Source: Lacunisphaera sp. (GTDB taxonomy: Bacteria; Verrucomicrobiota; Verrucomicrobiia; Opitutales; Opitutaceae). Taken from it: a DNA stretch of 64,000 nt. Below, one piece after another: positions 49,536 through 55,073 of the stretch (positions are counted from its first letter, which is position 1; the number at the start of each line of letters is the position of its first letter). The position numbers and the translations under genes are program-made. The notes under the pieces were generated by a model. That model had not been told where the DNA came from, made no database searches, and saw only the letters and a list, made by a program, of their open reading frames with translations. The DNA is taken from positions 1 to 64,000 of the forward strand of contig SIBQ01000009.1 in assembly GCA_009695095.1 (NCBI GenBank). The letters are read 5' to 3'.

Positions 49536-50372
49536 TCAGAAACCGTGGAGGGAGATGCCCCAGGCTTTGGCCTGCTGGAGCACGGCGAGTTTTTCGAGCA
49601 CGATCGTCTTGCCGGCTTCGAGCGCGGCTGCACCGAGGCCGGCCTCGTGCATGACCTCCAGCGTGCGCAAGCCGAAGACGGGCACATCGAAGCGAAAGTC
49701 CTGGTTGGCCTTTACCGTTTTGACGAAAAGGGCCTCGTCGGTCTTGAATTTTCCGGCGCGGCGGAGCATGTCGTCGGTGCCCTCGAAGGCCTCGACGGCG
49801 AGCACCGTGCCCTTGCGGACGACGCACCCCTGGCCGATGTCAAGCCTGGCGATTTCGCGGGCGATATGGATGCCGTGCGACAGGTATTCCTCGTCGATGG
49901 TAAACTTGCCGCACATTGTGCCGGGTGTGGCGAGGTGGTCGTCGATGAAGGCGCGGGCGTCGAGCAGGGAGACGCCGAGCTGCTCGATCTCGACGGCGAT
50001 GGCGCCGAAGATGGTCTCGGCATTGCGTCGTTTGAGGGCGAACAGGATCGAGGCCGCCTTGAGGTCGGGCACCAGACCGTGGAAGAGTTTCTTAGGTTTC
50101 ACCTGCCCGGCCATGAGTGCATAGCCAGCGCCGAAGTCCTTGAGGGTGTCTAGCATTTTGCCGACCTGCCCAACATTGAGCGTGACGCGCTCCTTCACCG
50201 GGAAACTGCTGATCAGCCCGGGCGAGGTCTCGTCGTCCATCGCGATCAGGCGCAGCGGCACACCGGCGGCGCGAATGGCCTCGGCGGTGATGACCGGATA
50301 GCGGCCGCGGCCAGCGATCAGGGCGACAGGACGCTTCGGGTGAAAATCCTTGGGCAGAAAGGCGGAGGACAT
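49536..50372 (-). CDS. lpxI: UDP-2,3-diacylglucosamine pyrophosphatase LpxI
   Basis: Hydrolyses UDP-2,3-diacylglucosamine to lipid X in lipid A synthesis, so the cell makes a lipopolysaccharide-type outer membrane. The 278 residues show VALIAGRGRYPVITAEA at the N-terminus, YALMAGQVKPKKLF, GAIAVEIEQLGVSLLDA and the conserved RLDIGQGCVVRKGTVLAVEA, KANQDFRFDVPVFG. LpxI replaces LpxH in alpha-proteobacteria and several PVC bacteria. ATG 50372 is chosen; ATG 50399 in frame is an alternative. Confidence 0.92.
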   Translation of the reverse strand: MSSAFLPKDFHPKRPVALIAGRGRYPVITAEAIRAAGVPLRLIAMDDETSPGLISSFPVKERVTLNVGQVGKMLDTLKDFGAGYALMAGQVKPKKLFHGLVPDLKAASILFALKRRNAETIFGAIAVEIEQLGVSLLDARAFIDDHLATPGTMCGKFTIDEEYLSHGIHIAREIARLDIGQGCVVRKGTVLAVEAFEGTDDMLRRAGKFKTDEALFVKTVKANQDFRFDVPVFGLRTLEVMHEAGLGAAALEAGKTIVLEKLAVLQQAKAWGISLHGF

Positions 50373-50463
50373 TGGAAAAAGGATGCCGGGCCAGCTCATC
50401 GCCTGCAAGCAGGCTCCTGCAAACTAAAAGCCATGCCCGAGGGTGCGACTTGCGAAAGAGGGC

Positions 50464-50988
50464 CTACGACTGCGAGCCGTAGTATTTCTTGTAGCTGCGG
50501 TAGTAGCAGTAATTGCTGTAATATTCGATGCGGCGCGCGGAGAGGCCGTTGAGCACGATGCCAAGCAGCTCGTTTTTGCTTTCGCGAATCTGGCGGATGT
50601 AGAGCCGGATGTGCTTGCGATAGGCGCGATTGAAGCGGCAGACGTAGATGACCTCGTCGGTGCGTTCGGCAATAAGGAGCGAGTCGGTGACCGCGACCCG
50701 GGTGTTCTGATCGATGAACATGCCGATGCCATTGGAATAGACAAAGGCGTTATGGGAATCATCTTTGGTCTCGATCACGGTGCCAGGGGCGTCAAAGGCT
50801 GTGGCTTGGCGGGCCGCATAGATTTTACCGCCGGTTTGGATCTGCGTCTCACCTCTGGTCTCGGCGACGTAAAGCTTGCTGGTGGGGCCCTTTTTCTTGC
50901 CGAGCTGGCGCTGGGCAAATGCATTCGGAAACACGTGCACGAGCGCTACGGCACTGAGAAGGAGAATGCAAATGAGGTTGGTTTTTAT
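50464..50988 (-). pseudogene. In-frame chimera: FecR-like N-terminus joined to BY-kinase C-terminus
   Basis: The first part reads as a signal peptide (KTNLICILLLSAVALVHVF) and a FecR-like domain (KLYVAETRGETQIQTGGKIY, VYSNGIGMFIDQNTRV). At about 50685-50705 it switches, in frame, to the end of a bacterial tyrosine kinase of exopolysaccharide export (DSLLIAERTDEVIYVCRFNR, RESKNELLGIVLNGLS) with the tyrosine-rich tail YYSNYCYYRSYKKYYG that such kinases autophosphorylate. The codon where ATG is expected is ATA (50986-50988); the first usable start is GTG 50940, inside the signal peptide. A deletion that removed whatever lay between the two genes explains it best. Confidence 0.75.
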
Positions 50989-51122
50989 GGCTCGATGGCA
51001 TATTAATTAACACAGTTACATGTTAAGGTGAAACTGCTTCGGTATGTTTCCCGAATTTAACTAGGTAGTAAACACCTATTCCAAGCGTAAAATCCAAGAA
51101 TTAATTAAATCTACATGACATT

Positions 51123-53699
51123 CTAGACCAGAAGATTAATCAGTCGGTTTTTTACATAGATCGTCCGTTTGATCGGCGTGCCGGCAATAAAGCGTGCAAC
51201 CTTCGGGTGGGCCAAGGCCAATTGGACCAATTCGGCTGCGGTAACATCAGCACCAACAGTAACATCGCCCCGATACTTTCCATTCACTTGAATCACGATC
51301 GTGATGGTGCTCGTGACGAGTTTGGCTGGATCGAACTCCGGCCAGCCGGCCGTCATGATTGATTCGGCCCCGTCCAGACGGGTCCATAATTCCTCCGCCA
51401 GGTGGGGCGCGAATGGCGCGAGCAGACGCAGCACGTCCCGCATCGCGGCGCGGGGCAGGGTAGGCTCCTTTTGCAACGCATTCAGCAGGATCATCATTTG
51501 CGAAATGGCGGTGTTGAAGTGGAGTCCCTCGATATCGTCACCGACTTTCTTGATGGTCTCATGGAGGAGCTTATCGGTCGCGGCCGAAAGCCGGGCATCG
51601 GACAAAATGCGGGAATTGACCGCACCCTCCTCGTTGAGGCACTCGCGCCAGACTTTGCGGAGGAAACGATGGACACCCTCGATGCCCTTCGGATTCCAGG
51701 GTTTCATCGCCTCGAGCGGTCCGAGAAACATCAGATAGAGACGCAGCGAGTCCGCCCCGTAAGCCCGTATGATGTCATCGGGATTCACCACGTTGCCGCG
51801 GCTCTTGGACATCTTGGTTCCGTCCTCGCCGAGGATGATGCCCTGATGGAAAAGTTTTTTGAACGGCTCGGCCTGCGGCACGACGCCGAGGTCGAACAAC
51901 ACCTTGTGCCAGAAACGCGCGTAGAGCAGGTGCAATACCGCGTGCTCGGCGCCGCCCACGTAGAGATCGGGCACGTCCCAGTATTTCAACGCCTCAGGGC
52001 TTGCGATGGCCCCGGCGTTCCGTGGGTCGAGGTAGCGCAGGTAATACCAGCAGGAACCGGCCCACTGCGGCATAGTGTTCGTTTCCCTCCGGGCGCGCAC
52101 CCAGCTGTCGCCGGCCGGCCTGTAATTCGTCGCGGGTACGGCATCGCCGGTTTCCATATTGAACCAGATTTCGAGCCACGCGGTTTCGTTGGCCAGCGGG
52201 CTTTCGCCGGTGCCGCTTGGCAGATAGGAATTCACCTCGGGCAAAACGAGCGGCAGGGCCGCGTCGGGCAGTGGCAGGGCAAAGTGCGTGAGGCCGTTCT
52301 CGGTGAACTTCACAGGTTGCGCGGGCAAATCCTTCCGCATCGCGGCCGCGCGGCGGTAGTCGGACTCGCTGACCCACACGATGGGAAATGGCTCGCCCCA
52401 GTAGCGCTGGCGCGAGAAAAGCCAGTCGCGGAGCTTGTAATTGATGCGCCGCGTGCCAGATTTTTTTGCTTCCAGCCACGAAATGATTTTCGTCTTGGCC
52501 TCGGCGATCCGCAGGCCATTGAGCGAGATTTCCGCGTTGCGGCTGTTGATGGCCGGGCCATCCTCGACAAAAGCGCCGCCCGGAAAATCCGGCGGCGGCT
52601 GTACTGTGCGGATGATCGGCAACTGGTAGAGTTTGGCAAACTCCCAATCACGTTCGTCCTGCCCGGGCACAGCCATGATGGCGCCGGTGCCGTAGCCCAT
52701 GAGCACGTAGTCGGCGACCCAAACGGGCACGCGCTTATCGTTGACCGGGTTGAGGGCGTAGCTGCCGGTGAAGACGCCGCTCTTGTCCTTGGCGAGGTCG
52801 GTGCGCTCGAGATCGCTCTTGCCGGCGGCCTTCCGGCGGTAGGCATCCACCTCGCCGCGGTGGGCGGGAAGGGTGAGCGCGTCCACGAGCGGGTGCTCCG
52901 GTGCCATGACCATGTAGGTGCAGCCGAAAAGCGTGTCGGGCCGCGTGGTGAAGACCTTCAGGTCACCCAACTCGGGCTTCTTCAGCTTGAACAACACCTC
53001 GGCGCCTTCGCTGCGGCCGATCCAGGCTTCCTGCATGCGTTTGGTCGAGTCGGGCCAGTCCACGTCCTTGAGCCCGTCGAGCAACCGCTCGGCATAGGCG
53101 GTGATGCGCAGCACCCACTGGCGAAGGTTGCGGCGCTCGACGGGATAGTCGCCGACCTCGGACTTGCCATCCACGATCTCCTCGTTGGACAGCACGGTTC
53201 GGAGTTCCGGGCACCACCACACGGGGCGCTCATCGACATAAGCCAGGCCGTTTTGGAAGAGCTGGAGGAAAATCCACTGCGTCCATCGGAAATATTTCAG
53301 GTCGGTCGTGTCTACCTCGCGGTCCCAGTCATAGGAAAAGCCGAGCGCCTTGATCTGCCGGCGGAAGGTGACGATGTTGTTCTGCGTGTTGGCGGCCGGG
53401 TGCGTGCCGGTCTTCACGGCATGCTGCTCGGCGGGCAGGCCGAAGGCGTCCCAGCCGATCGGGTGGAGCACATTGAAGCCGCGGGCGCGCTTGCAGCGGG
53501 CTAGGATATCGGTGGCTGTGTAACCTTCCGGGTGCCCAATATGGAGTCCCGAACCCGAAGGATAGGGAAACATGTCGAGCACGTAGTATTTCGGCTTAGC
53601 GGAGCCATCTACGGCGCGAAAAGCCTTGGTTTTTTCCCAGAAAGATTGCCAATACGGCTCAATCTTTAGAAAGTCGTAGTCTTTGCAATTGGTAGCCAT
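51123..53699 (-). CDS. leuS: Leucyl-tRNA synthetase
   Basis: Charges tRNA-Leu. The 858 residues match bacterial LeuRS (E. coli 860). Class I motifs are PYPSGSGLHIGHPEGY near residue 45 and GTKMSKSRGNVVNP late in the sequence; the editing domain has FTTRPDTLFGCTYMV and the leucine-specific region follows. ATG 53699 (MATNCKDYDFLKIEPYW) is preferred to TTG 53726. It ends with TAG, again showing that TAG terminates here. It is divergent from htrA with only 18 bases between the two starts. Confidence 0.97.
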   Translation of the reverse strand: MATNCKDYDFLKIEPYWQSFWEKTKAFRAVDGSAKPKYYVLDMFPYPSGSGLHIGHPEGYTATDILARCKRARGFNVLHPIGWDAFGLPAEQHAVKTGTHPAANTQNNIVTFRRQIKALGFSYDWDREVDTTDLKYFRWTQWIFLQLFQNGLAYVDERPVWWCPELRTVLSNEEIVDGKSEVGDYPVERRNLRQWVLRITAYAERLLDGLKDVDWPDSTKRMQEAWIGRSEGAEVLFKLKKPELGDLKVFTTRPDTLFGCTYMVMAPEHPLVDALTLPAHRGEVDAYRRKAAGKSDLERTDLAKDKSGVFTGSYALNPVNDKRVPVWVADYVLMGYGTGAIMAVPGQDERDWEFAKLYQLPIIRTVQPPPDFPGGAFVEDGPAINSRNAEISLNGLRIAEAKTKIISWLEAKKSGTRRINYKLRDWLFSRQRYWGEPFPIVWVSESDYRRAAAMRKDLPAQPVKFTENGLTHFALPLPDAALPLVLPEVNSYLPSGTGESPLANETAWLEIWFNMETGDAVPATNYRPAGDSWVRARRETNTMPQWAGSCWYYLRYLDPRNAGAIASPEALKYWDVPDLYVGGAEHAVLHLLYARFWHKVLFDLGVVPQAEPFKKLFHQGIILGEDGTKMSKSRGNVVNPDDIIRAYGADSLRLYLMFLGPLEAMKPWNPKGIEGVHRFLRKVWRECLNEEGAVNSRILSDARLSAATDKLLHETIKKVGDDIEGLHFNTAISQMMILLNALQKEPTLPRAAMRDVLRLLAPFAPHLAEELWTRLDGAESIMTAGWPEFDPAKLVTSTITIVIQVNGKYRGDVTVGADVTAAELVQLALAHPKVARFIAGTPIKRTIYVKNRLINLLV

Positions 53700-53717
53700 C
53701 GAGTAAAACCCGCCACA

Positions 53718-55073
53718 TTGAGACAATACCCCCCACCGTCAATCATCGGCCGACTGGCCGCGGTCGCCCTGCTTGGGCTGGGCCTGGCACTTTCCTCCGC
53801 AGCGGCTATGAGCCGCGGCTTCAACCGGCTGCTCGAGGCCGTCGTCCGAATCGATGTGCGGGAAATCGAATTCGCCGAGGGGACCAAGCGCATCACCGGC
53901 GGGGTCGGCTCGGGGGTGATCATATCCGGCGATGGTCTGGTGCTGACCAATGCGCACGTGGTCAGTCCGCAGGCCGTGGAGATTTCCATCACCCTGGCGA
54001 GCCTCGAGCGCGTCGGGGCCAAACTGGTCGGCTGGGATCATTGGACCGACCTGGCGTTGCTGCGCATCGACCTGGACGCGGTTAAACAACGCGGACTCAG
54101 CTTCGCCTCGGCCGATTTTGGCAACTCGGACGAGCTCTTCGCCGGCCAGACGGTTTATGCGGTGGGCACTCCGCACGGCTTGACGCGCACCGTCACGCGC
54201 GGCATCATTTCCAATCCGAACCGCTACTTTGAGGACAGCCGCGGTGTGAACGGCTACGAGACCGGCTCTTTCAACACTTGGCTCCAGACCGACGCCGCCA
54301 TCAATCCCGGCAACAGCGGTGGTCCACTCGTTACCGAAGACGGCAAGGTCGTCGGCATCAATTCCCGCGCCTACATCGGCGCGGATAATCTGGGCTTCGC
54401 CATCCCGGCGACCGTGGCCCGCAAGGTGGCTGCCGCACTGGCGAGCAACGGCGCCATTTCCCGCAGCTATATCGGCGTGAGGCCCGGCGTGCTGCAGGAT
54501 TTGGAGCGATTCTATGCGCTGGCCAGCAACACCGGCATGCTCATCAACAGTGTCGACCCCGGCTCGCCTGCCGCCAAGGCCGGACTTCGCGCCGGCGATG
54601 TGCTGCTGAACCTGAACGGGCGCAATGTGGACGGGCGTTTTCCCGAGCAGCTGCCGCCTATTCAACAGTCTATTGCGAGCCTGCCAATCGGGGCCAAGGT
54701 GATCCTCGGGGTGAAACGCAGCACTTCTACGGTTGAGCTTACGGTGCAAACCGAGAAACTGGAGAGCCAGGTGGGTGAGGAATGGGCCTTTCAGAAATGG
54801 GGACTTAGCGTGCGCAAGGTTTCGCGCGCTTATGCCCGGGAAAACCAACTGACCGACCAGAACGGCGTGATCGTGCTCGGCGTGCAGCCGGGGTACCCGG
54901 CGGGGGAGGCCGGGCTCGCTCGCGGCGACATCATCACGAAGATCGGCAGCGAGCCCATCGGGGCGCTCGCCCAGCTGAAGTCCATCTATGCAGCTTACGA
55001 GGCCAGGCCCGAGCCGCAACTGGTCGAAGCCCGGCGCAACCGCCGCATTTCCCTTTACGTCATCAAGCCATGA
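53718..55073 (+). CDS. HtrA/DegP-type serine protease with two PDZ domains
   Basis: Periplasmic protein-quality-control protease. Signal sequence (RLAAVALLGLGLALSSAAA), then the trypsin-like core with a full triad: His80 in TNAHVV, Asp111 in TDLALLRID and Ser200 in NPGNSGGPL. Two PDZ domains follow (around GMLINSVDPGSPAAKAGL and GVIVLGVQPGYPAGEAGL). The start is TTG 53718, the only one that keeps the signal sequence; ATG 53808 would lose it. The 3' end overlaps the next gene by four bases, so it is coupled to a protease-like partner lacking catalytic residues. Confidence 0.92.
   Translation: MRQYPPPSIIGRLAAVALLGLGLALSSAAAMSRGFNRLLEAVVRIDVREIEFAEGTKRITGGVGSGVIISGDGLVLTNAHVVSPQAVEISITLASLERVGAKLVGWDHWTDLALLRIDLDAVKQRGLSFASADFGNSDELFAGQTVYAVGTPHGLTRTVTRGIISNPNRYFEDSRGVNGYETGSFNTWLQTDAAINPGNSGGPLVTEDGKVVGINSRAYIGADNLGFAIPATVARKVAAALASNGAISRSYIGVRPGVLQDLERFYALASNTGMLINSVDPGSPAAKAGLRAGDVLLNLNGRNVDGRFPEQLPPIQQSIASLPIGAKVILGVKRSTSTVELTVQTEKLESQVGEEWAFQKWGLSVRKVSRAYARENQLTDQNGVIVLGVQPGYPAGEAGLARGDIITKIGSEPIGALAQLKSIYAAYEARPEPQLVEARRNRRISLYVIKP

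Follow-up and report, generated by a model that had tools for sequence, protein, structure and literature searches.

A stop-free frame in the window (the whole 64,000-nucleotide stretch of DNA analyzed) joins the start of a FecR-like gene to the end of a Wzc-like BY-kinase gene and is very probably a deletion scar, a pseudogene left as a small-genome lineage lost its capacity to make and export exopolysaccharide. Both parent genes, their ancestral order and the junction between them were identified, and the genes missing from between them were absent from the assembly.

Two parents in one open frame

Alignment of each half with relatives by tblastn, together with the stop-free frame, bore out the sequence-only reading of an in-frame FecR-like/BY-kinase fusion (Table 1). 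The part of the frame ending at V104 corresponded to the N-terminus of FecR-like proteins of ~290–345 aa and residues 105–180 to the C-terminal 76 residues of Wzc-like kinases of ~730 aa. With the fused protein as query against related genomes, residues ~3–85 matched FecR-like genes and residues 75–158 matched kinase genes, in the same genomes, on the same strand and ~4.6 kb apart. A search of its own genome returned the self-match only, at E values up to 10, with either half present as a single copy, and a plasmid search gave only weak matches to the kinase tail. A Pfam scan of the fusion returned no FecR match; the full-length FecR-like relative itself scored below the Pfam FecR cut-off (19.5 vs 24 bits). 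Matches of the fusion to PAP_RNA-bind, AAA_26 and MMR_HSR1 were sub-threshold and chance-like and were rejected.

The FecR-like half had 56–79% identity to same-genus proteins (tblastn) and retained the first third of fecR alone. Its expected start codon had been read as ATA and is ATA; most near relatives carry ATG exactly there, 20 codons before open-frame residue 27. In one relative (G010, L034 about 4699) the aligned ATG of the fecR-like gene was out of frame with what follows it, which may mean that this locus is beginning to decay there as well, or that the assembly is in error.

The kinase half had 84–96% identity to Wzc-like proteins of the genus and, by sequence, matched the VpsO and Wzc structures as well as the eps_fam tyrosine autokinase model (TIGR01007; 4e-6). 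It contains the C-terminal tyrosine-rich cluster (YYSNYCYYRSYKKYYGSQS), inside which an R-to-C change was found at a position invariant in 17 relatives. This identity and the tail agree with the earlier assignment to the end of a BY-kinase, although the length given there, 75 residues, was one short of the 76 found. Walker A, A' and B are absent from the fusion, the sequence upstream of the joint being FecR-like and the relatives' motifs lying in the deleted part. The joint falls just after the Walker B segment (VVDSPPMG) in the relatives' kinases, and all ATPase motifs are thus gone. Neither a Wzz/periplasmic domain nor a separate partner protein was found in the fusion's own genome.

Table 1. 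Positions in the window of the fused frame, its parts and its neighbors.
Feature	Position	Strand	Description	Basis
Fused open frame	50464–51006	(-)	180 codons, stop-free	
fecR-like remnant	50695–50988	(-)	Expected start (ATA) and first 98 codons, including signal-peptide-like stretch	tblastn, start alignment
Start codon position	50986–50988	(-)	ATA replacing ATG	Alignment with relatives
Deletion junction	50694–50695	(-)	CG from either parent	DNA-level comparison with both parent genes in ten relatives
wzc-like BY-kinase remnant	50464–50694	(-)	Last 76 codons, tyrosine-rich tail, stop	Identity to genus
leuS	51123–53726	(-)	Upstream flank	Same position in relatives
lpxI	49536–50408	(-)	Downstream flank	Same position in relatives
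Upstream dyad	51062–51078	(-)	TAGGTGTTTACTACCTA, 17 bp (relatives: 16 bp)	

Ancestral locus and deletion junction

Full fecR-like and wzc-like genes were found in relatives between leuS and lpxI, in the same order and on the same strand. The uncut locus runs leuS, fecR-like, outer-membrane beta-barrel (BBP2_2), Poly_export/SLBB (Wza-like), wzc-like, lpxI and dus, both within the genus and among more distant Opitutaceae, and the named contigs of the same type came from MAGs of Lacunisphaera, Opitutus, Oleiharenicola and Didemnitutus. The window shares these flanks, with leuS and lpxI separated by the fusion alone. Sites equivalent to the two breakpoints were 4323–4424 bp apart in the ten relatives in which both could be placed, five others being excluded because a strict fecR-breakpoint motif was unmatched. 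The beta-barrel and polysaccharide-export genes lie between these sites, which supports the earlier proposal that a deletion removed everything between the two genes, probably an exopolysaccharide locus.

At the joint, which reads ACC CGG GTC / GCG GTC ACC on the coding strand, the T at 50696 occurs in the fecR parent only (GTG/GTC vs GGC/GGA) and the C at 50693 in the wzc parent only (GCG/GCC vs GAG/GAA). C50695 and G50694 are compatible with both parents, leaving ~2 bp in common, so the deletion was not made by a long repeat. The change of family, placed earlier at about 50700, thus lies no more than 10 bases from that position. The missing length modulo 3 differs among relatives, and the in-frame joint is therefore explained by a one-in-three chance alone. 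An assembly chimera at 50695, or a minority strain contributing the joint there, would be favored by the fragmentation into 41 contigs. However, the two sides are true neighbors in relatives, ~2 bp of shared sequence is too short for an assembly overlap and the excised genes were found nowhere else in the assembly, and we consider such an artifact very unlikely.

In the flanking leuS gene, 12 columns without variation among relatives were changed, a number equal to the highest among the relatives. Its LeuRS editing-domain segment reads AVPGQDERD here; before the D, AH was found in 20 of 23 relative sequences, GH in two and GE in one. The 17-bp dyad between leuS and the fusion has a counterpart of exactly 16 bp, TAGG-N8-CCTA, at 33 of the 36 relative loci compared, which include a few second copies of the same contig. 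This TAGGGTNNNNACCCTA-like 16-bp dyad, preceded by CTTG, stands upstream of the polysaccharide-export operon (e.g., L031, L036, L059) and is possibly an operator between -35 and -10. The pattern was rare, with 0–2 distinct sites per genome in six genomes; one extra site preceded a large repeat-rich, autotransporter-like ORF (L103) and another a sensor-kinase-like ORF (L102).

Exopolysaccharide genes in this and other genomes

Many homologues with the same fused architecture, named in the sequence-only reading as the observation that would speak for a real small protein, did not appear: the fusion was absent from 57 genomes (its own set apart) and from 42 named contigs. Apparent matches to query residues 34–158 (L016, L079, L080) were rejected as fusions, since they lie in long wzc frames of ~730–810 codons. 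The smallest assemblies of the genus, G014 and G008, were examined for a shared deletion. leuS lies at a contig end in G014, with no lpxI match in that assembly, and the same joint was rejected for G008, where the wzc frame runs on upstream of the joint to the contig end. Either assembly gave a single Poly_export match, located in a frame of 236 codons.

The genome carrying the fusion amounts to 2.14 Mb in 41 contigs and is 91.5% complete, compared to 2.8–5.2 Mb in other genomes of the genus that are at least 90% complete. No Wzz-domain protein, no Bac_transf initiating glycosyltransferase and no homologue of the barrel gene was found in it, and the same barrel query recovered all tested relatives with the full locus, at identities as low as 39%. 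Across the 15 genus genomes that are at least 90% complete, this one included, Wzz was present in 14 and Bac_transf in 14, the exception both times being the genome with the fusion, although with 41 contigs and 91.5% completeness single absences elsewhere may be gaps. A lone Poly_export/SLBB protein is left (L094 5698-6585; G000 contig 34) and lies among unrelated genes; it adjoins an amino-acid permease gene and is near a dihydroorotate dehydrogenase gene. The likely setting is a shrinking genome from which exopolysaccharide export and synthesis were lost, and the species presumably makes no such polysaccharide.

Formation and status of the fusion

An ancestor with leuS, fecR-like, outer-membrane beta-barrel, Wza-like export, wzc and lpxI genes in that order would have undergone one deletion of ~4.3–4.4 kb, whose ends, sharing ~2 bp, point to illegitimate joining. 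This would have taken two thirds of fecR, both middle genes and the first ~650 wzc codons including the ATPase motifs, and would have joined the remaining fecR and wzc ends in frame. The predicted product would lack the kinase core and have its tyrosine-rich tail following a signal peptide, so that it could not do the work of either parent; given the change of the start codon to ATA, a useful amount of it is probably not produced. We infer that the deletion was a single, recent event and that the fused remnant is non-functional. Changes at otherwise-invariant columns numbered 1 of 25 and 2 of 60 in the two halves, stretches short enough to give little statistical power, similar to 12 of 505 in leuS and 2 of 178 in lpxI. 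The R-to-C change in the tyrosine-rich tail is one of them. Both halves thus still stand near their relatives, which makes a recent event probable, and these changes fit a recent loss better than a retained new gene.

The intact frame and the well-conserved tail count against a scar, as a functional protein would show both. A working new small protein would be maintained by selection, with translation starting at the ATA or at a GTG further in (50940), and an open frame of 180 codons whose tail remains this close to genus members speaks for it. However, the frame has no ATG, GTG or TTG ahead of the signal-peptide region, and a start at the first such codon, the GTG at 50940, would drop most of that region. 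The R-to-C change in the tyrosine-rich tail affects a residue that is otherwise invariant, the fusion occurs in no other species, the kinase core and its partners are missing and the upstream dyad is altered. We consider a selected small protein very unlikely, and it is highly improbable that a non-standard start yields a small exported protein with a BY-kinase tyrosine tail, retained in a new role after the export machine was lost. A deletion pseudogene remains the preferred reading: the ancestral order is intact in relatives and the normal start has been lost to ATA, with the frame itself still open. The case is one of ordinary gene loss with a young scar, and no new system is revealed. It provides a recent, base-resolved example of losing a conserved Opitutaceae polysaccharide-export locus, and a caution that such fusions can be mis-annotated as new domain architectures.

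The fusion shares with the FecR-domain protein of the Opitutaceae polysaccharide-export locus a signal-peptide-like start and the first ~98 codons, but lacks the last two thirds and begins with ATA. With Wzc/VpsO-type BY-kinases, polysaccharide co-polymerases with a tyrosine autokinase, it shares the last 76 residues and the tyrosine-rich tail, but not the Wzz domain, the transmembrane segments or Walker A, A' and B. Deletion-born fusion pseudogenes are known from shrinking bacterial genomes and likewise combine two partial genes, a tiny shared sequence, intact neighbors and a lost pathway; here, in contrast, the two parts are joined in frame and have so far decayed little.
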